A DNA stretch of 64,000 nucleotides from Polychytrium aggregatum. Taxonomy: Eukaryota; Chytridiomycota; Chytridiomycetes; Polychytriales. The position numbers and the translations under genes were made by a program. The notes beneath the pieces are model-generated. The model ran no database searches and was not told the DNA's origin. It saw only the letters and a program-made list of their open reading frames with translations. How positions within the stretch are numbered: the stretch's first letter is position 1; each line of letters opens with the position of its first letter. Location: assembly GCF_025602895.1 (NCBI RefSeq), contig NW_026516291.1, forward strand, positions 1 to 64,000, in the 5' to 3' direction. Below, piece after piece: positions 1 through 27,797 of this stretch.

Positions 1-1409
1 CGCTGTGTGCCGCTGATGCGATTGTGCAGCATGGCGAGCGGTGGTCGTCCGCATGAGGAACGCATTGTAACCCATGCCGCCAGAGGGAGCCGGCCCGGCG
101 CAGGGCCCAGAGATCGGATGAGCATGGAGATGAAGCGACAGAGGACGACCCAGAGGCGACGCGGGGGCGGCTCGGGCTTCTGGCGGCGGGTGGGAAATCA
201 GACAAACCGCAATCCGTGCGGCGACCCGATCAGCGTCTTGCGCTTTCCTCCTGCCTCGCATGGTGTCCGTGCAGCGCACGATGCCCCTCAGGCGGTATTC
301 GAGAATTGCGCTGAGAACTGGGATTTGAGGTGACGACGCAACGCTGTGGCAAGAGCACAGCCGCTCGCTTGTCTCGCATGGGCAACACTGCGCAGAGTAC
401 TTGACGAGGCCTCTCGTCGCTGCCGGCAGTATTGCCCCGCCGCAAACGATCAAGAGGCAGCCGATGCGTCGCCTGGATGTTCAAATGGGACTGTTCCAAC
501 AAGACTTCCGCAGGGGATTCCACCAGGGGATTCCAGCAGGGACGACGAAAGAACAGGCTGTTGTCGAAACCTTGTCGGGCGTCCCCATCCAATCGGTGAT
601 TGAGCCAGCGAAGACTGTCAATGCAAGTCCATCGATTGCCAGTCATGCCGACGGGCTTCCACAATTATTGCATAGCGGCTGCCGTTGGCCATTGGACCAG
701 CTTTGGTGGAAAGATCGGCGACGAAACCTTAACTGGATGGAACGGTCGAAAAATGGTGGAGTGTCGATGGTGGTTTCGCCTGGACCAGAAGAGCCGGATA
801 TAAAGGCTGTGAGCCGGCAGTTCCTCCCATCTCTGCATCCAGCGCAGCTACAGGGTCTGGCCTCTTTGCTGACATTGGCTTTCGTCTTCCTTGTTCCGAT
901 TCCAAGAGCTCTCCATCGGTTATCGTCTTTGGTCACAACCGTTAAACCACCACCCCACACCTGTGCAAACATCCTCGACTGTGTTCATAATGAAACTTAC
1001 CTGTCCAATGATGTCAATCTGGGCCGCCATCGCGGTGATCATGGCACGTTCTGTCGACACAGGTATGGCAACCCTCGAGCGGCATTGCTGGCGGGCAATT
1101 AAGTATGGTGCTTGTACCATTCACCATCCCCCATCCACCATCCAACCATCCACCATCCACCATCCCCCATCGCCACATATCCAGCGCAAGCCAGACCGGT
1201 GCCGCCCAGCCTCCCCAATACGTCGTAACGGGCATTGGGTTCTACACCGATCGGCTGCCCGACCGCGGGCCTCTTTTCGTGAGCAGTGGGCCGGAAACCA
1301 ACTCTAATCCACCTATTACATCGTTCCTAAATGAAATGGGACACCCCCGTTTTGAGCATGACAGTGCTTTTTTCTGGAACCTGAATATACCCACCCACTC
1401 ATCGCATTT
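1..1409. other. Left flank, no confident gene
   Basis: No exon chain or recognisable domain is seen on either strand. The longest open frame (about 401-1102, plus) is compositionally ordinary and matches nothing I know. A TATA-like string sits near 797. A CCATCCA-type simple repeat occupies about 1121-1175. The stretch from about 1340 leads into the Fanzor relic and may be part of that element. Confidence 0.4.
1121..1175. repeat. CCATCCA/CCATCCC simple repeat
   Basis: Imperfect tandem 7-10 bp units of CCATCCACCAT type are read directly from the sequence. The repeat lies upstream of the first Fanzor relic and no coding role is evident. Confidence 0.8.
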
Positions 1410-1411
1410 GT

Positions 1412-1850
1412 GGTCAAGCAAGTATGTCCAAGGAATACCGAAGTGGTGATTGCCTTTGGAAATGCCTCGTGGAAACAGGGGAAGGGATATGCATCCAGTC
1501 CCAGGAGACTCAGGTTCGCTCGGTATTTTGAGCAGTTCATTCATGTGTGCTCGGTGAACGAGTTCAACACATCCCAGGTGTGCTCGGTGAACGAGTTCAA
1601 CACATCCCAGGTATGCTCACATGCCGGGAAACCAAGGGACTCGATAAGGTCGAGTATCTTGATATCGAGAAACCATGAAACTGTCCAGAGAGTGGAGTGG
1701 ATGCACTTCACAGAGAGATTGCCAACCAGGACGAGAGACCGTCGCATGGCTTGCTCACTGGAGCATATGGAAGTTCAATAGGCGTCAGGCCTCTGAAGCC
1801 AGGAAGCGACTGTCCCGTTTCTTTCTGGATTGACTGTGGAAGTAATAATA
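1412..1850 (+). pseudogene. Fanzor (eukaryotic TnpB-like) relic, copy 1
   Basis: This plus-strand segment translates to the same peptides as the larger minus-strand Fanzor copy at 2300-3238. Shared pieces include EVVIAFGNASW, KQGKGYASSPRRLRF, HVCSVNEFNTSQVC and the closing DCPV-FWI block. It is clearly broken: a unit of about 33 bp coding CSVNEFNTSQV is tandemly duplicated (about 1543-1608), a His/Arg-rich spacer present in copy 2 is missing, and the second zinc-ribbon Cys pair and the WDRDINA motif are gone. Homology with copy 2 stops near 1845, about ten bases past the position of copy 2's stop codon. Fanzors are RNA-guided nucleases related to TnpB and are usually mobile-element cargo. This copy cannot encode a full RuvC fold. 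Confidence 0.85.
1543..1608 (+). repeat. 33-bp tandem duplication inside Fanzor copy 1
   Basis: Two adjacent near-identical copies of a 33-base unit beginning GTGTGCTCGGTGAACGAG are read directly. The unit length is a multiple of three, so the frame is kept across the duplication. Only one copy is present at the corresponding place in Fanzor copy 2. Confidence 0.85.
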
Positions 1851-2139
1851 CAGCAAGCAAACCATGGGACGCCATCTCTTTCGGGCACGCGGACCATATC
1901 GTCTAATCGGTCGAGCATGTGTGTGGGAGGAGGAGGAGGAGGAGGACACAGGGCAAGGGGAAAGGTCGCCTGGTGCTGACCACAGGTCCGACTGTTCGAT
2001 CGATATTGACACTATGAAAAATTTCTTGTTAATAAAATGAGCGAGAACGAAAAAACGCGCTCTCGGAGCCACCTCGGTCAGCGAGAAGAGCAGTCTCTGG
2101 CGAGAGACCCCCGAGGGAAGGCGAGAAGCCTCTCGCCGT

Positions 2140-2164
2140 CACACACACACACACACACACACAC
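2140..2164. repeat. (CA)n microsatellite
   Basis: An uninterrupted run of about twelve CA dinucleotides lies in the spacer between the two inverted Fanzor copies. Confidence 0.95.
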
Positions 2165-2299
2165 TTTGCACAAGGGAGTCAAACACCTCCCATCGACCAT
2201 CCCAAGAGGGATGGCAACCCCGAAGTGGACTGCCCAGAATATGGGCGACCCGGCATCCACTGTAGAAATACTCAATGAACAGTGCGAGATACTTACAGT

Positions 2300-3238
2300 C
2301 TATCCAGAAATAAACGGGACAGTCACTTTCTGGCTTCTGAAGCCCGCTGACTGACTTGTAGGCCCAGCGGGTAGGCCATGGCATTGCACTCCTGTCTTCG
2401 TTGGCAATCGAGTGGTTTTGGTTGGTTTGGGAAGCATGGTCTTGAATACACCCGGTCGATCTCCTGTGGCGATGATCGACTGGCATACCGAGATCATGTT
2501 CCTGGTTGCATTGATGTCTCGATCCCACAGCGTATGGCAGCTTGCACAGCTCCGGACAAAGTGTGGTTTCTCGATATCAAGATACTCGGGTGACTCGAGT
2601 CGCTTGAATTCCCGACAATGTGAGCACACCTGGGATGTGTTGAACTCGTTCACCGAGCACACATGGATCTTGGAGACGGATCGGTCTGGTGGGCGTCTCT
2701 GGTGATGGTGGAACTGCTTGAAATACTTGGCAAACCTGAGTCTCCTGGGACTGGAGGCATATCCCTTCCCCTGTTTCCAGGATGCATTCCCAAAGGCAAT
2801 CACCACTTCGGTCTCCTTCGGTGCCTGGTCGATGACTTGCTTGCACATCTCGTGGACGGTGCGCTGTCGCTTGCTGTGGAGATCGAGTCGCTTGAATCGC
2901 CGTCGCCGGGTCAGGCTGAAGTGCAGCTGTTTCTCCAGCATGTCTCCATCGAACACATGGCGAATGTATCGCAGGAAGGGATCCAACCCAGGGATCTTGG
3001 GACTTGGTGTGGTGCTCATCCATTCCTGCAGACCAAGGGCCTTGTGGGTGCTCTGGATCCACTTCATCACCTGGGTGGTGACTTTAGCTTGGGAGCCATC
3101 TGGCGAGAAAATAGCGACGATGGCTGGTTCTGCCCTTGGGGAAGAAAAATTCTCTTCAAAACCAGCGCATTTTGGGCTGGCAGAGATACTGCGCAGTAGC
3201 GTCCTTGATCCAGATCCAGAAACGCATCGCTCGCTCAA
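2300..3238 (-). CDS. Fanzor/TnpB-like RuvC nuclease, C-terminal part (copy 2, probably decayed)
   Basis: This single open frame of 312 codons is the longest Fanzor piece here. The C-terminal half carries the diagnostic arrangement: FGNASW at about residues 149-154, a zinc ribbon with C205/C208 and C231/C234, and the RuvC-III motif WDRDINATRNM with the catalytic Asp near 241. I do not see a convincing RuvC-I motif. Known Fanzor1 proteins are about twice as long. A TGA stop lies directly upstream of the first codon, which is TTG, not ATG. In another frame just upstream (about 3140-3265) a coding-like stretch ends in QPKMRWF then stop, which suggests a frameshift, or an intron I cannot place. 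The frame ends in FISG at 2300, opposite copy 1, so the copies sit tail to tail. This is most likely a recently inactivated element; a spliced, active gene is less likely. Confidence 0.8.
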   Translation of the reverse strand: MSERCVSGSGSRTLLRSISASPKCAGFEENFSSPRAEPAIVAIFSPDGSQAKVTTQVMKWIQSTHKALGLQEWMSTTPSPKIPGLDPFLRYIRHVFDGDMLEKQLHFSLTRRRRFKRLDLHSKRQRTVHEMCKQVIDQAPKETEVVIAFGNASWKQGKGYASSPRRLRFAKYFKQFHHHQRRPPDRSVSKIHVCSVNEFNTSQVCSHCREFKRLESPEYLDIEKPHFVRSCASCHTLWDRDINATRNMISVCQSIIATGDRPGVFKTMLPKPTKTTRLPTKTGVQCHGLPAGPTSQSAGFRSQKVTVPFISG

Positions 3239-3239
3239 T

Positions 3240-4141
3240 CAGTCGTGGGAAGACATCTTGTCAAGGTGAGTCTTGCCTGATAGCCAAACGATCATGTCAT
3301 CTCGCTGACACACAGCCGCGCTTGACTAGGTTTCCAACCAGAGAGATTCAGATGGTGGTGGTTCTTGTCCGCAATCGGAGTGGAGCTTCCAACAATGATA
3401 CAATTGGTCATTCCTCCACACCAATTGCCCACCACCACCGTCAATCGGCTCAAGGCGATACCAAATGCCATCAACCGACCATGGCCGGATTCCAACTTTT
3501 GCTGCGCCACAGCCAACGTGACTTTCAGGTGACCGAGATGAGCAGCCGCGAGGGGCCGGAAAAAATTGATAGTGTGATTCATGGACGCTGGGGCCGCCAA
3601 GCCACCGCGCCGGTTGGCACGCAGCCTGCGCACACGTGTGCGGCCATCTAATGGGGTGCCTGTCTCGCGTGTGGCTGTGTGACGCACGTGTCGCTGGCGC
3701 GGCGCGCCCCACACACTGGAGCTGGCTGCATCCAGCCCCGCAGCACACTGGTTCACAGGAGGTGCTGGCTGCAACCGCCTGTGTTCCGGCGGCGGCGAGC
3801 GCGTTGTCTGCGTCACCGCCGCGACGACGAGGCTTGCTGCCAAGGCGGGCCCTTCTCGCCCACTGCTCTCGCTGCACCGAGAGGGTGGCGAGAGCGGACG
3901 AGAGCCCCTCCGGCGCCTCTCGCCTGCCGTCCCAAAAACCGCCCTCCTCGCCCCGTTCGCACCCTCGTTCACCATCCGTTCGTCTGCTCCACACCCACGC
4001 ACCAAAGCGAGTCCTGCTCGAGCTCGCCTTTCCAGCCGCCCTGCTCCTGGTCGGCCTGTTCGCTCCTCGATCGCCGTCTGCCTGTCCGTCGGTCTTGCTT
4101 CTGGTTCAGCTGCCTCGACCCTCTCGCCTCCCGTCGCCACC
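3240..4141. other. Region between Fanzor copy 2 and the glycosyltransferase gene
   Basis: About 900 bp. The proximal 30-130 bp contains coding-like minus-strand sequence that may be the eroded N-terminal part of the Fanzor. The remainder is GC-rich with long chance open frames in several phases and contains the 5' flank and leader of the downstream gene, whose ATG is at 4142. No TATA box or other clear element was identified. Confidence 0.4.
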
Positions 4142-6010
4142 ATGTTGATTGACGAAGATTCCACCCGTGCCAACGAGGGTGCCTCCAAGTATGTCCGTTG
4201 CTTGTGTGTCTGGCTTTGGCTTGCAGCCAAAGACGAGCTTGGACGTTGGCCAGGTCTATTCTCCGATCGTCTGGATTGACAGCGTACTGCCGTCTGGCCG
4301 GTCCGCCGCTCTCGATTAGCCCTGTGTCAATCGACATGTTTGCTGTGCAATCGAGGGGTCGTGTGATGGATGGTGTGAGATGCAGATGCAATCCCCACCG
4401 GTGGGCCGACGATCGCACCATCGAGCCTGAAGAGCGGGGTGGTCCCTCGCCAGTTGACCATGTCATGGAGTCTTCGATACTGACGCAAGTTGTGGCTGCT
4501 CCTCCCGCTCGTGCCCACGTCCATCGCAATCGCAATCGCAATCGCAATCGCAGGCCCCTGCGTATCTTGATGGCAACCGAGTATTTGCCCCCTCACATCT
4601 CGGGCATTGCAAATCGATGCAAAAACCTGATCAAAGGCTACCGAGATAACGGCCACCATGTCACTGTCGTTTCTGTGGCTGGCACCGACTGCGATATTGT
4701 CGCCCCTTCGGTCCCCAACCCTTTTTATACGGCACAGAGGTGAGCCACGACCCCGTATCGGGCGATTCTGCGGGCGATTCTGCTGCTCCATACGCCTGAT
4801 TTGCGTTTCACCTGGGCAGCCGACTCTGTTTCGGGAAGGCACATATCGTCCATATGCTTCTCCGTTGACTAACCGCTTCTGGCCCTTTGTTCCTCCCAGG
4901 ATGTTCATTGCCGTCCCGTTGCTGCTGCTCTGGCAGCTCCTGGACTTTACCACCCCTGTCCCCTATGACATCATCCACGCCGTCGGACCTCTTTGCTTCC
5001 CCTTCATCTTCGCAATGCCTCTCTTCAAGCTCCGTGGCGTCAAGGTGTACATTTCGTACCACGTCTATCTCCAGTACTACAAGCGCCACTACTTTGGTGA
5101 CAATCTCATCCTGGGCATGATTGTCGAGGGCCTCTATCTGCTGTTCTATTTTATGCCCCTGGTCTGCTTTGCGGACGTGGTAGGAATCCCCTCCCGAACG
5201 GCCGACTGGTGCGTCTTTGCCTATTCCAAGAGAATCCACGTCATGAAATCTGGCCTCGACACAACCCTGTTTGCTCCCCGCGAGGACGAAGCTGTGTCCG
5301 TTGCCGAAACGCTGGCGACCCCGACCTCCCAGCTGACCCAGCGAGTCGTTCCCGACCAATCGAGCCGCGCCGGCCCCATCCTCGTCTACGTTGGTCGTCT
5401 GGCCGCCGAAAAGAACGTTGATTTCCTGATCGCGAGCATGAAACACCCGAAGCTCGCCAAGACCACGCTGGTTATTGTTGGAGACGGGCCGGAGCGCCAG
5501 CGCCTTGAAGGCCTTGCCGAGGAAATCGTGGGCGCGGATCGCGTCTACTCGTACTCGGGCTCTCAGCCTGGTGACATTGGCCTCCTGAAACAAAGCTCCT
5601 CGAAGCGAGTCATCTTTGCGGGAATGATCACGGATGAAAGAGAAACGGCTCGGTTCTATGCGCACGCCGATCTGTTCGTCTCGGCCTCGGCTTCGGAGAC
5701 CTTTGGCTTCACGGTCGCCGAGTCGCTGTCATGCGCCACCCCGGCTGTTGTTGTTCGTTCGGGCGCCTTTGCCACCATCTACCGCATGATCGACGAGTGG
5801 ATGTTCGAGGAGGGAAACGTCGAAGACTATGCCGACAAGATCACTCGGACGTTCAAGGACCGCGTGGTGGCTCGGAAGGTCTCGCGGAGAATCGCCGTGA
5901 ACCAGTTCAGTGTCGAAGCCGCCATCCGTAACCTGCTCAAGACATACGAATGCATCGTCGACGAGCGTGAACATGAACTCGAGTCCCTGGACGCCGTCAA
6001 GGAGAAGTAA
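4142..6010 (+). CDS. GT4-family glycosyltransferase, SQD2-like
   Basis: Three exons (4142-4188, 4554-4739, 4900-6010) join in frame to about 447 residues. The N-terminal Rossmann half has the acceptor-side ISGIANRCKNLIKGY block and YDIIHAVGP. The C-terminal half has the GT4 donor-site signatures VYVGRLAAEKN, VIVGDGPERQRLE and the E-x7-E region SASASETFGFTVAESLS. Hydrophobic segments near the middle suggest membrane association. The order of motifs resembles plant and cyanobacterial sulfoquinovosyltransferase SQD2 and related lipid glycosyltransferases; the acceptor lipid cannot be read from sequence. A substrate other than diacylglycerol is possible. Intron 1 ends in a CAATCG hexamer repeat that forms part of its acceptor. 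Codon phases across both introns are consistent. Confidence 0.85.
4526..4553 (+). repeat. CAATCG hexanucleotide repeat at an intron acceptor
   Basis: Four to five CAATCG units run directly into the CAG acceptor of glycosyltransferase intron 1. Confidence 0.9.
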
Positions 6011-13713: not shown

Positions 13714-16404
13714 ATGCCACTGACAATCTCCTACTCGGCTTCCATGATTGATCCGCTTCAAGACTCATCGCTGCATCCTTCTGTCACCGCCAACTGCATC
13801 GGACCGCACTGTGCCAACATGAATCCCGATCAATCCTTTGTCGGCTCCCCGTCCAAGCAGCCCTCGGAATCGCTCAAGATCCATCGCTCGCTCATCCGCT
13901 TCGAGTCCATCCTTGACCTGAAAGAGGCTTCAAGCCTTCGCACGGCCAACACTCTGGAGGAGGAGCTTTCACCTGCTACAGCCGACGACTTTGCGTTCTT
14001 CACCACAGGTGGGTATGAGACCATGCCGGGTTGGCCCCATAATCATCGCTGGCTGCTGCATCGGTTTGTCTTTTCTCTGGGCCGTTTTGCGGCTGGTCCC
14101 CGTGCTCGCAGCTGTGTGATGTAAGCCGCTCTTGGATCTGTCAGGGACCCGCCCCAGATTCGTCCGGTGGCATCTGCATTTCCTCCTTTGGAATCCGCCT
14201 GGGGATCCGCCTGGGGATCCGCCTGGGTTTCTTCCTTGGGCTCGGCAAGCCGGACACTCTGCGCTGTGATTCCCCCGTGCGAGCCCGATTGAAGCGCTGC
14301 ACATTCCCTCCGATGTCTCTCCATCGCCGCCTCACCCCATCCACCTTCCCATGTTGACTACCATCACCGTCTCAATTGCGCTTTATATAACTAGCATTTG
14401 CATCGCATTAATCTCACACCTCCCCTGCCTTCTCCTTCTCCATCGCCATCCAATCCGCTCGTCGCACACTTCTCCACTCTGCCCTGTGCAGATATTCCGC
14501 TTCCTGCAAGTGCCAAGACCCCACCACTCGATCCGCTCCAGGCATTCTTTCCCTATGAGACCGAGCTGATAGACGTCTCGCAGCTTGGGTCCACAGCCAT
14601 CACCAGCCCGCATCTCTCGGCCCAACCCGCAAAGCCTATTCCCCAAGCACATGCCGTGAGCTGGTCGGTTGCTACTGAGCAGGGCTATCGAAACATCGGC
14701 ATCTACAACAGCTCTGTTTCGCCTCAACGCCAGCCCATCCATTCCGTCATGGAAGACATTCACTGGCCCACCTCGAACGAACACCCTACCATCTCTGTCG
14801 CCAACCCACTGCCCCAACCCAGCTTGACCTTTGACCCGCTCTTCCAGCCAGCGGGCTCGCAACCGTCCGCATCGAGCCGCACTCCGTCGCACTCTGGCTT
14901 GCCGCCGATGCCTCCCCTGCCTCAGTGTCCGTTTCCCTCGCGCACGTCTTCTCGGCAGTCCGTCGGGTTCTCGTCCTCGTCCTCGTCGTCTTCGTCGTCG
15001 GCCGCCTCTTCGTTCCGAGAACACTTCCAGGCTCAGCTCGCACCGCAAACCTCGCTATTTATCTTGGCTGACGGCCATGGCGGTGTCGATGCCGCTCGCT
15101 TCTTTGTATCCCGCGCTCGCGAGCTGGTGACCCAGCTGCTCCAGTCACAGCCCTGGAACTTTGAGCTGGCGTCGGACCGGACCTACTTCGAGTCTTGTGT
15201 CGGCACCATCTTCCAGTCTATGGACACCGAATTCTGCAAGACCAAGATCGAGGAGTATCGCAAGTGGATCGAACTGTACTCACCCGAACTCCCCAAGGAA
15301 ACCCGACCCATCGACGACGGATGCACCCTCGTTGTCAACGTCATCCACGGCGGTTGGCTGGTCAACTGCAACGTTGGCGACTCGCGGACCATCGTTATTA
15401 CTTCCTCACCGCAGAAGTCTGCCCGCACCGAGCCGTCGTTCCTGATGCCCAGCTTTCCCCAGCGCTTGCCGTCGCCGTCTCCCACCAACGCCTCGGGCTG
15501 GTCTCCGATCTTTGCCAGCGACGACCACAACATGACTCACCCAGAAAAGCTCTTCCACATCTACAAGAACGGCGGCGAGTTTGTGACCTCCGCGGGTGTC
15601 CTTCGCCAAGTTGAAATCATAGACCCTACGTCTGTATCGGCAACGGGCCAGCCCCAGCGCAGAATCTACACCGAGCTCAACGGCAGCCGCATCTACCGCC
15701 GACTAACACCCGAGATCCAGCGCGTCGGCGTCTCCAATCGCCGTACCCTCAACCTCACCGCCACCATGGGCGATTTGGTCTTTAAGGTCGAGCCCGCTGT
15801 GCTTTCCGTTCAGCCGGACGTCGACTTTGTCCGCCTCCAAAGCGACCAAGACTACGTCGTCATTGTTGCCACCGATGGCGTCTGGGACCACATGCGTGTC
15901 CAGGGCGAAGGCGGCAACCATGCCATTGCCGAGTACATTGGCTCCCGCATCAACTCCTGGAACGAGCTCAAGCAAAGGCACGCCGCGCAGTCAAGCATCG
16001 ACATCTCCCGCTTGCGCATGCGCTCGGGTGATGCACTTTCCCGTCCACCGGCCATCTCATCGGCCATCCCCAGCGTTATTCAGACGACGCTGTCCTCGCT
16101 CATCAATCCCCTGACGCCGACGCCGTCTCCCTCGCCGCCACCTTCGCCTTCACAGGGCCAAAGCGCAGATAACGTGCCCTCCAACCCCTCGTCCGTCAAG
16201 ACGTGGTGCAAGGTCGAGTCGCCCCTGCAAGAGCCAGAAGAACCCCTGCCTCCGCTGCCGCCGCTCCAGGAGCTTCTCTCTGAGCTGGCCCAGTCGCTGG
16301 TTTCGCGCGAGTCGGCCACCCACAACACCGGACTATTTATTTTGAGGCAGATCCGCTACGATGATGCGACCTCGTTCCTCATCCATTTGGGAGCCAACAA
16401 GTGA
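13714..16404 (+). CDS. PP2C-family (PPM) protein phosphatase
   Basis: Two exons (13714-14008, 14492-16404) join in phase to about 735 residues. The PPM metal-binding signatures are present in order: MED (in HSVMEDIHWP), ADGHGG, DGCTLVVNV, NVGDSR, ATDGVWDHM and a terminal RYDD, so all the acidic ligands I can identify are kept and the enzyme is probably active. Compared with standard PP2Cs (about 300-400 residues) it has a long Ser/Pro-rich N-terminal extension, a Ser run of about ten residues before the DGHGG motif, and a Pro/Ser-rich insert before the last motif. Likely a Mn/Mg-dependent Ser/Thr phosphatase; targets unknown. The ATG at 13714 is the first in frame after stops; in-frame ATGs 33 and 105 bases later could also be used. 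Intron 1 contains three GGGGATCCGCCT units near 14195-14230. Confidence 0.88.
14192..14228 (+). repeat. 12-bp tandem repeat in PP2C intron
   Basis: Three tandem copies of a GGATCCGCCTGG-type 12-mer lie inside the single PP2C intron. Confidence 0.9.
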
Positions 16405-24516: not shown

Positions 24517-25313
24517 GGCGGGCGTCTGCTGCTGGCTGCGACGGCGGGATAGATCGGATGACAGGCCAGCGACAGACCGATGCGCCCGACACCACCGCAG
24601 CAGCAATTTGCGCAAATCGGGACGCCGGGACAGTCACGTGGGAGTGCGTGCTGCTGGCCAATGGCGGAGCGGCGCTTGCGAGGCGAGACAATGTCTGGCG
24701 GGGCTGCCTGCGCGACGATGCCCCGGATGCGGTGCGGCGAGCGATCTGCATAGGGAATATCGCCATTGCGCAGAGGGAGAGCAAAAGGGGAGCAAAAGGA
24801 GAGCAAAGGGCGATGGCCGCGACGATGCCGAGGCGATTGTGCGGACAGCCCGAGAGCTTGGGCAGAAATGCATCAATGCCGGGCAGACTCTCCGACCAAT
24901 GCAATTCAATCCGTGCAATGCAATCCGTGCAATGTATTCATCCATAGGCGCAATCGATGTAATCGATGCAATCGATGCAGTCCACGCAGCGACTGCAAGC
25001 AAATCAACCGCAGCCGCAGCACGACGGCGGCCTGTCTCGGCCAGCGGTTTGCCTGTGGGATGGGGACGCCTCCGATGCGATGATGCGACTGCCGCCCCCC
25101 TGGAATTCTATTTATTCCGTCGCTTCGTCCGAGCCCACCCGCCTCCACCGCCGCTGCCTCTGCTGTTGGCTCTGGCAAAGTCACGCTCTGCCCATCCGGT
25201 CATCTCATCCGGCCATCTCATCCGGCCATCTCATCTGGTCCCTCATCTGGCCATCCCTGTCCAGCGGCTTGAATCCTCGGTGCTTTCGCCTGAACCGCAT
25301 CTGGCCCGGATCG
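24517..25313. other. Divergent intergenic region SSRP1/ATM1
   Basis: About 800 bp upstream of both genes. It contains short direct repeats (CAATCCGTGCAATG near 24908-24935, ATCGATGCA units near 24950-24985) and a CATCTCATCCGGC repeat at about 25195-25245. The ATM1 frame is open back to an ATG at 24966, but the extra sequence is not presequence-like, so it is treated as leader. Confidence 0.5.
25195..25250. repeat. CATCTCATCCGGC tandem repeat
   Basis: Three to four tandem 14-15 bp units lie about 70 bp before the chosen ATM1 start codon. Confidence 0.85.
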
Positions 25314-27797
25314 ATGGTGCTGCCGGCACGTTTGTCCCTGCTGACCCGCTGCGGGTCTCTGTTCTGCTCTCGGGGAACCCGGGCTCCCAGAGCAGCGTCC
25401 GTCGCAAGCTCTATCCCAACCCCAAGCAGCATCTGGCCCGTCCGCACCTACGCAACGACGAGGGTCCACTTGCAACCGACCCGCCTCTTGTGTGGAGCTG
25501 CGCTGGCATCGCCGGCCAGAGCAATGCTGGGTTTGTACAGCCCCGGCAAGACCGCCGGTTCTCTGCTGCAGATGACGACAGCCAGGCATTACACTCCCGA
25601 CAGGGCGGGCGATCCAGCCCAGGCGACCAAGGCGATCAAGACGACCACGGCAGGCAAGCCCACTCCCGCCCTCGGCAACCTGTCTCTTTCGTCACAGGGC
25701 ACCCACGCCTCCCAGCACGATCTCCAGATCATCCGCGAACTCACAAAGTACCTGTGGCCCAAAAACAACATCGCCATCCGGGCCAGAGTCGTCCTGGCCC
25801 TCAGTCTGCTCCTCGCCGGCAAGCTCTTTACGATCTACGTCCCTATTAGCTTCAAGCACATCGTCGATGCCCTCAACATCACCCCCGATCCCTCCATGAC
25901 GGTGATGACCCTGGCCGGCACCATGCTCCTCGCCTACGGCACATTCCGCTTTGCCGGCTCGCTCTTTGGCGAGCTCCGCAACGCTGTCTTTGGACATGTC
26001 GCCCAGAGAGCCATCCGCTCCGCCGCCAAGGACATCTTTTACCATATCCACAACTTGGACCTCTCCTTCCATCTGTCGCGCCAGACCGGCGGGCTCACCC
26101 GCTCGATCGACCGCGGTACTAAGGGCATCAACCAGATCCTGTCGTCGATGGTTTTCCACGTCGTGCCGACCCTCTTTGAAATCTCGCTGGTCTGTGGCAT
26201 CATGGCGTACAACTTTGGACCCGGATACGCCGGCGTGGCGCTGACAACCATGTTTGCCTATTCAGCCTTCACCTTCCTCACGACCTCTTGGCGCACCAAG
26301 TTCCGCCAGCAGATGAACAAAGCCGATAACGAAGCCGCAACCAAGGCCACGGACTCGCTGCTCAACTTTGAGGCCGTCAAATACTTCAACAACGAGCGAT
26401 TCGAGATGAAGCAGTATGACAGCTCCCTGAAAAAATACGAGGCTGCGGCCCTCAAGACCACAACATCGCTGGCCTTCCTGAATGCCGGCCAGAACTTTGT
26501 CTTCTCGGTTGCCCTGACGATCATCATGTGGATGTCGGCACACGGGGTCATCCAGGGAGCACTGACCGTCGGCGACTTGGTGATGCTCAACGGCCTCCTG
26601 TTCCAGCTCTCGATGCCTCTTAACTTTTTGGGAACCGTCTACCGCGAGACCCGCCAGTCGCTGATCGATATGGACACCATGTTCCGGCTGCACCACATCA
26701 AAACAAATGTGCCCGAGCGCGCCAACCCCAAGGAGCTCCAGATCGTGCCGGGCACCTCGACCTCGTTCATCGACTTTGACAACGTGTCGTTCGGCTACAG
26801 CCACGATCGCCGCGTTCTGGACCAGATCAGCCTGAAGATCCCGCTTGGTGCCAGGGTTGCCTTTGTGGGCCCCAGTGGCTGCGGCAAGTCGACGATCCTG
26901 CGACTCTTGTTCCGGTTCTACGATCCCAGCCACGGCACAATCCGGATCAACGGCACTGACCTGCGTGACTACTCGCTGTCGTCGCTGCGCCAGGCAATGG
27001 GTGTTGTGCCGCAGGACACGATCCTGTTCAACAACACTCTTCGGTACAACATTGCATACGGCAAGATTGGCAGCACGGACGAGGAAGTAATTGCCGCTGC
27101 TCAGATGGCCCAGCTCCACGACGTGGTCCAGACCTTCAAGGACGGATACGACTCTCGGGTTGGCGAGCGCGGCTTGATGGTCAGCGGAGGCGAAAAGCAG
27201 CGCGTGCAACTTGCGCGAGTGTTTTTGAAGGTAAGCACTCTGGGTCGAGTCTGCTGAGCAGCCGAAACAAAATGCAATGGCGGCCAGTGGATGCGGGAGG
27301 GAGATTGGCCGACACGGCGAGGAAGTGGATGGTGTGTTTTCAGGAGCTCAGAGCAGGCGGATGGCATTCCAAGAACGTTGCTAACCCATCCACCGACTCT
27401 GTTGTCACCACCGCCTCTGTTGTCACTACTGCCTCTGTTGTCACTACTGCCTCTGTTGTCACCACCGACTCCCCAGGATCCCCCGATTCTCATGTTTGAC
27501 GAGGCCACCTCGGCCCTGGATCTGACCACCGAAAAGTCGATCATGGAGGCCGTCCACACCTTCATCGGCTCCGAGGCAGACTCGTCCAGCAAGAAGACGG
27601 CCATTTTTATCGCCCACCGCCTCTCGACCATCATGGACTGCGATGTGATATTCGTGCTCAAGGCCGGGCGAGTCGTTGAGCAAGGCACGCACGACGAGCT
27701 TCTCCAGATTGAGGGAGGTGTCTATGCGGCCATGTGGAACGCCCAGTCGATCAGCGGCGGTAGTCTCGAGGACCCCGAGGAGGTCTTGACCCTGTAA
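25314..27797 (+). CDS. ATM1: Mitochondrial ABC transporter Atm1 (ABCB7 type)
   Basis: Two exons (25314-27230, 27477-27797) join in phase 0 to about 745 residues. The start chosen gives MVLPARLSLLTRCGSLFCSR, an Arg-rich, acid-free presequence typical of matrix import. A six-helix transmembrane region follows (from about LYVPIS-like FTIYVPISFKHIVDAL through the NFLGTVYRE segment). The nucleotide-binding domain then has Walker A GPSGCGKST, Q-loop VVPQDTILF, signature VSGGEKQRV, Walker B ILMFDEATSALD and H-loop AHRLST. NERFEMKQYDSSLKKYE matches the glutathione-site region of Atm1. It exports a glutathione-linked sulfur/iron compound from mitochondria for cytosolic Fe-S assembly. The intron splits the NBD between the signature and Walker B and carries an 18-bp tandem repeat. 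Confidence 0.95.
27395..27472. repeat. 18-bp tandem repeat in ATM1 intron
   Basis: Four units of CTCTGTTGTCACTACTGC type lie directly before the exon 2 acceptor. Confidence 0.9.

Follow-up and report, generated by a model that had tools for sequence, protein, structure and literature searches.

Two Fanzor relics of different transposon types in Polychytrium aggregatum, and the probable capture of a Tc1/mariner Fanzor by a CACTA-like element

The two Fanzor stretches that lie tail to tail at the start of a contig of the chytrid Polychytrium aggregatum are very probably dead derivatives of Fanzor transposons, the minus-strand one (copy 2) being a deletion form of a CACTA-like element that captured its Fanzor from a Tc1/mariner element. 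The plus-strand one (copy 1) is an older deletion relic of Tc1/mariner type, and neither of the two looks capable of making a nuclease. The window, i.e., the whole stretch of 64,000 nucleotides analyzed here, is a contig start in a genome assembly of 64.7 Mb and 418 contigs, and was treated as eukaryotic. It also contains a plus-strand frame for a group 1 glycosyltransferase (4631-6007), ca. 1.1 kb beyond copy 2, and genes for a PP2C phosphatase (14395-16401) and an ABC transporter (24963-27254). When the genome was searched with the protein of the 312-codon frame of copy 2, 127 places were scored among 1,742 first-look candidates, with open frames of up to 1,011 codons, so the finding in the window belongs to a large repeat family, full-length members of which exist. 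It should be noted that the haplotypes were assembled separately, and thus copy counts exceed the true number of loci. The comparison set consisted of 50 loci, 30 from the protein search and 20 picked for their long open frames. The genome-wide alignment of copies that a preliminary description of the window had proposed recovered full-length members, terminal repeats and target-site duplications. That description had not recognized copy 2 as a derivative with an internal deletion and no RuvC-I, or the two copies as coming from two transposon types.

The identification of the protein as a Fanzor, a kind of eukaryotic protein related to CRISPR enzymes, was borne out. The motif given for Fanzors in PMC3627910, D-X(125,275)-[TS][TS]-X-X-C4 zinc finger-X(5,50)-RD, is found in a full-length family member (L032) as D554, 197 residues, T752-S753, cysteines 756/759/782/785, five residues and R791-D792; copy 2 has it only from the zinc ribbon onward. 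Full-length relatives have ca. 860 codons, and Pfam detected PF07282 in them. The same domain scores 38 bits in copy 2 and 22.5 bits in copy 1, the latter below the cut-off of 26.3. Aligned to the window by tblastn, a full-length relative matched copy 2 at 3136-2303 (87.8%, E 8e-160) and copy 1 at 1392-1829 (40%, E 2e-24). The minus-strand frame of 312 codons (2300-3238), the WDRDINATRNM motif and the four zinc-ribbon cysteines reported earlier for copy 2 are all there, and so is the RuvC-III/zinc-ribbon profile, on which the preliminary description had staked its identification. Values of dN/dS were 0.30 for 14 long copies of what we call family A (the CACTA-like carrier), 0.31 for the four copies of family B (the Tc1/mariner donor) and, over the C-terminal part alone, 0.27 for 24 short copies; these figures are biased by the choice of copies for open frames or protein similarity and blurred by conversion between copies. 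The AlphaFold model of the full-length protein had a mean pLDDT of 36, too low for a fold search. Matches in sequence searches of the PDB were weak, with E values no better than 0.06; they were to Cas12m, TranC and the TnpB-like protein L79, which we take to be a mimivirus Fanzor. A scan of viral contigs produced 21 pattern matches, among which no relative was confirmed.

Family B is a Tc1/mariner element with a Fanzor, as indicated by its inverted repeats, TA flanks and DDE transposase, and comprises four of the 20 long loci (L044, L046, L048 and L050). Its left end is TACAGYCAATCCAATAAAAAACGGGACACC and its right end, homologous to window position 2294, is GTCCCGTTTCTTTCTGGTTTGACTGTA. In L046 and L050 the Fanzor stop precedes this right end by 29 bp; in L044 and L048 an earlier stop precedes it by 116 bp. 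A 325-codon transposase frame lies in the first kilobase, open in three of the four and split in L046, and the DDE_3 domain in L050 scores 86 bits. Across the genome, the left-end pattern has 426 matches (up to three mismatches; control, 0) and DDE_3 has 150 scored matches. Ten of these, identified by comparing the two lists by eye, sit ca. 500 bp inward from a left end that is on their strand (C2:38416, C24:76329, C46:84152, C52:94792, C58:79189, C63:30802, C63:45903, C79:721630, C157:641921 and C174:14449), and four of the ten (C24, both on C63, and C157) have a Fanzor match downstream on the same strand. For two of the four family B loci, joined-flank searches turned up no empty site, and hence no sign of recent activity.

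Copy 1 (1317-1838, plus strand, 522 bp) combines the right end of family B with a left end common to three other loci (L008 and the alleles L018 and L035), each starting TACAGCGTTT. Both of its inverted repeats can be located, a degenerate, Tc1/mariner-like one on the left (1317-1347) and another on the right (1808-1838), where TG stands in place of the expected TA. Between them, the element is internally deleted, with a degenerate remnant of the Fanzor C-terminal coding sequence (1392-1829). In matching blocks copy 1 is ca. 75 to 90% identical to other copies, and it contains a 33-bp internal duplication; compared with family B, its reading frame has shifted at least once.

Copy 2, in turn, is a non-autonomous Fanzor element of 1,565 bp on the minus strand (2010-3574), delimited as a repeat unit from 3574 to 2010 by comparing the window with the 50 loci. 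Its left terminal inverted repeat is CACTATCAATTTTTTCC (3558-3574), the right one ends in TTTCATAGTG (2010-2026), and both are bordered by a target-site duplication, TGA (2007-2009 and 3575-3577). Allowing up to two mismatches, the left-end pattern has 143 genomic matches and the family form of the right-end pattern 244, with 0 for the reversed-pattern controls. The CA/TG microsatellite (2140-2164), which varies in length among family A copies, had been taken for part of a spacer between the two copies and is actually within the 3' part of this element. All this bears on the initial reading, by which a single Fanzor element would be present twice, tail to tail, with both copies ending some ten bases after the stop at a guide scaffold and element end. 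The two stretches do form inverted homologous blocks (1428-1837, plus; 2295-2821, minus), and they share a 3' boundary, at ca. 1838 in copy 1 and ca. 2294 in copy 2, the latter 6 bp past the stop of the 312-codon frame. That boundary is an element end in family B, where a scaffold-like fold is also predicted, and as a relic in copy 1, but copy 2's element runs on for 284 bp to 2010 with repeats and a duplication of its own. The two copies bear different ends, and a single element present twice is highly unlikely. Across the copies the 3' flanks do have boundaries in common, as the preliminary description required, but of two kinds, Tc1-type at 2294 in family B and CACTAT at 2010 in family A. 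The 3-bp duplications beside the CACTAT repeats rule out position 2294 as the end of copy 2.

Transposons of the CACTA/EnSpm superfamily have CACTA ends and generate 3-bp duplications. Family A shows this pattern, with CACTAT inverted repeats and an exact 3-bp duplication in 21 of the 26 loci with both ends recognized, the window's own included (4-bp duplication, none). When the pairing was shuffled, such matches averaged 3.1 and never exceeded 9 in 2000 trials; 12 of the 50 loci that lacked one end, 8 allelic duplicates and the 4 family B loci were left out of this count. The carrier might instead belong to another superfamily that makes 3-bp duplications, e.g., a Harbinger-like one, and the CACTA label does rest on the ends and duplications, as the sequence between family A ends yielded no transposase. 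However, the genome has 29 matches to PF02992, the CACTA-type transposase, and 14 control genomes have none; together with the CACTA start and the exact duplications, this makes another superfamily possible but unlikely, and the rest of the account would not change with it. None of these 29 (e.g., C201:122238, 128891 and 138008) lies within ca. 10 kb of a family A end among the end matches listed. A total of 21 of the 29 score between 37.2 and 38 bits, and such near-equal scores suggest a separate multicopy family.

Among the matches listed (111 left and 110 right positions), 76 family A elements could be paired, of which 34 measure 1,550 to 1,639 bp, 21 measure 3,343 to 3,462 bp, 14 measure 3,699 to 3,876 bp and 7 have other sizes. 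Two of these seven (L051 and L052; 278 and 295 bp) have the same flanks and are thus alleles of one insertion. One form of 665 bp (L054) has lost most of the Fanzor and kept the buried Tc1 end described below. We also observed a rearranged family A element of 1.07 kb with two left-type ends in inverted orientation (L053, C51:45733-46844). Certain full-length forms, L031 (2868-3233) and other copies of 3.7 kb, carry an extra segment of ca. 367 bp in the 5' untranslated region that other full-length forms lack, and this insert has no match to the family B loci L050 and L046.

What connects the two families is that family A retains three pieces of Tc1/mariner origin: the tail of a transposase gene, all or the 3' part of the Fanzor gene, and a Tc1 right end. 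In copy 2, a remnant of the transposase C-terminus, residues 289-309, is found at 3216-3284 on the minus strand (tblastn 74%, E 2e-4), and its DNA shares 95% identity with family B locus L050 across 43 bp. The right inverted repeat with its TA, the 3' part of a putative guide-RNA scaffold and now a relic, is buried at 2294-2324 (minus strand). This Tc1 right end is present in 36 of the 36 family A sequences compared, a set from which L012, which breaks off just past the Tc1 end, and the allelic duplicates had been dropped; the 284 bp beyond it are absent from the four family B loci. Since neither the leftover of a transposase nor a foreign end without its partner is likely to be ancestral, the Fanzor appears to have moved from the Tc1/mariner element to the CACTA-like one. 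We infer this direction from the captured pieces. The two families do have the Fanzor gene in common, so that family B could be thought to derive from family A by acquiring Tc1 ends. Yet family A has only the tail of a transposase gene that is whole in family B, and a single Tc1 right end without its partner, which makes such a derivation extremely improbable. No empty carrier site for the Tc1-type piece was found. The family A 3' block has 150 matches versus 301 for the buried-end pattern, which catches true Tc1 ends too; this comparison of counts, a blunt test for Fanzor-free carriers, gave no hint of extras.

Under the capture scenario, the source would have been a family B element with inverted repeats, TA flanks, a DDE transposase (the 325-codon frame) and a Fanzor of ca. 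860 amino acids, whose right end probably doubled as the 3' terminus of the Fanzor guide RNA, the guide being taken from flanking DNA. A CACTA-like element would then have captured the tail of the transposase, the whole Fanzor gene and the right end, giving rise to family A, which spread to the ca. 150 copies assembled (haplotypes counted separately). As no transposase was detected in it, family A is probably mobilized in trans. The Fanzor might have favored retention of the element by cutting vacated or empty sites, as proposed for TnpB. Finally, a deletion of ca. 1.8 kb at a short repeat would have produced the 1.57-kb form to which copy 2 belongs, and this form should make no nuclease.

The deletion itself is one and the same in all short loci (30 of 30, alleles counted), joining the start region of the Fanzor gene to about codon 605 of an 863-codon reference at a repeat of ca. 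8 bp, CACCACCC, which in copy 2 is located at 3073-3080 (minus strand). With ca. 1.8 kb lost relative to full-length copies, the RuvC-I motif IGIDPG of the full-length relatives is gone, and what remains at 2303-3072 (minus strand) is the C-terminal part with RuvC-III and the zinc ribbon. The deletion has joined its two sides out of frame, and the 312-codon frame is open only because out-of-frame upstream sequence runs into this C-terminal part. It is therefore a chance fusion rather than the Fanzor gene for which it had been taken, its first ca. 53 codons being upstream sequence in the wrong frame. One could still imagine that the short forms encode a small functional protein, RuvC-III plus zinc ribbon, that binds the guide RNA or inhibits the full-length Fanzor, as no stop interrupts the C-terminal frame in any of the 24 short copies and its dN/dS is as low as that given above. 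However, these copies came from a protein search, which favors open frames, and conversion from intact copies could carry the dN/dS signal. Moreover, RuvC-I is absent and the canonical ATG, missing in 4 of the 24 unique short copies, is followed by a stop after 27 or 28 codons in 19 of the other 20 and after 10 in the window copy. We consider a functional small protein very improbable, and regard the short forms as dead deletion derivatives.

Allelic pairs suggest conversion between copies or, alternatively, errors of assembly. Nine family A sites were found on two contigs with matching flanks, 98.4 to 100% identical where aligned, and inside the element the alleles are 94.8 to 99.9% identical. 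At one of these sites (L018/L035) a short and a long form are allelic. Four pairs (L039/L049, L041/L043, L010/L013 and L018/L035) have ca. 3 to 5% internal difference at one insertion site. The allelic differences are clustered, and some tracts are identical to other copies; conversion between copies is suggested as the natural reading, with assembly error as the alternative. Exchange between families A and B is weak: in 36 of 630 windows the nearest sequence to a family A copy came from family B rather than from within family A, two of them with strong contrast. Two carrier-derived blocks (3334-3215 and 2254-2195 in copy 2) have a nucleotide diversity (pi) within family A of 0.006 to 0.010 versus 0.037 to 0.116 in the Fanzor part. 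The synonymous sites of the Fanzor (pS, 0.12 to 0.16) are more than tenfold above the pi of these two blocks, but carrier sequence is not uniformly so constant, as the outermost 120 bp on the left side of family A (0.075 to 0.114) are as variable as the Fanzor.

The Tc1-type right end has features of a guide-RNA scaffold. In family B, the 69 nucleotides that end there are predicted to fold into three stems closing on the inverted repeat plus TA (z, -3.67; from L044 and L050, identical over the 69 nucleotides). For 43 segments of 76 nucleotides at this position the mean z was -2.08 (median, -1.44), with 42% below -2, versus means of -0.80, -0.58 and -0.87 and 2 to 7% for three neighboring controls. 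In family B, four of five segments scored below -2; in family A, 14 of 36 did so and the other 22 were above -2. In the window, the 76-nucleotide segments of copy 1 and copy 2 gave z scores of -0.76 and 0.06 and shorter ones -0.82 and -1.35 (67 nucleotides), respectively. Copy 2 has lost the nuclease and kept its element ends, and its buried end folds weakly or no better than chance. RNAalifold found little covariation. By the modeled folds, the Tc1-type right end resembles a three-stem guide-RNA scaffold in family B and in those 14 of 36 family A segments, the case of copy 2 being unclear. With the old guide-RNA end buried, any guide would be taken from a fixed stretch of the carrier and not from each new insertion site. 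What follows the buried end in family A is a single stretch passed down with the family, in which copies differ by substitutions and small deletions, and so any family A guide would not be the local flank; in copy 2 the sequence at the guide position (a "frozen guide," 2270-2293, minus strand) was likewise inherited with family A. That full-length family A Fanzors are armed with this one inherited guide and cut a constant sequence, instead of proofreading insertion sites, is a doubtful idea for now. If true, the frozen guide would target, e.g., Fanzor-free carrier copies, or drive conversion between copies.

Fanzor transposons and their defective derivatives are a known kind of element, and the carrier switch is an unusual and well-documented case among them. 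Fanzor1 in Tc/mariner elements (Bao and Jurka 2013, PMC3627910) is accompanied by a Mariner-like transposase, inverted repeats and TA duplications, and Fanzor-only derivatives bearing those Tc/mariner ends have also been described there; as far as these descriptions go, family B resembles them and family A, with its CACTAT ends and 3-bp duplications, does not. The abstract of PMC3627910 names Helitron, Mariner, IS4-like, Sola and MuDr carriers, and CACTA or EnSpm do not occur in its main text. We found no publication on a CACTA-like Fanzor carrier with a buried old end, in a search that covered few subscription journals. Ghost elements of SpuFz1 in Spizellomyces punctatus, as described in PMC10432273, have kept their ends and lost the Fanzor gene, with no transposase found between the ends. 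The short family A copies are similarly short, with ends kept and no transposase found, but, unlike the ghosts of that description, they retain ca. 250 Fanzor codons and have the guide-like end buried and, in many copies, weakly folding. The fold predicted for family B is like the Fanzor1 guide RNA of PMC10711439, a three-stem structure that includes the inverted repeat and the duplication, whereas the scaffold of family A, here predicted from sequence, is internal to the element. Why Fanzors are found in many transposon families and TnpB in two was posed as a future question in PMC10711439. With a donor, the two-gene Tc1/mariner-Fanzor element, and a recipient, the CACTA-like element, in one genome, P. 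aggregatum offers a traceable carrier switch, and the switch raises the question of where the guide RNA now ends.
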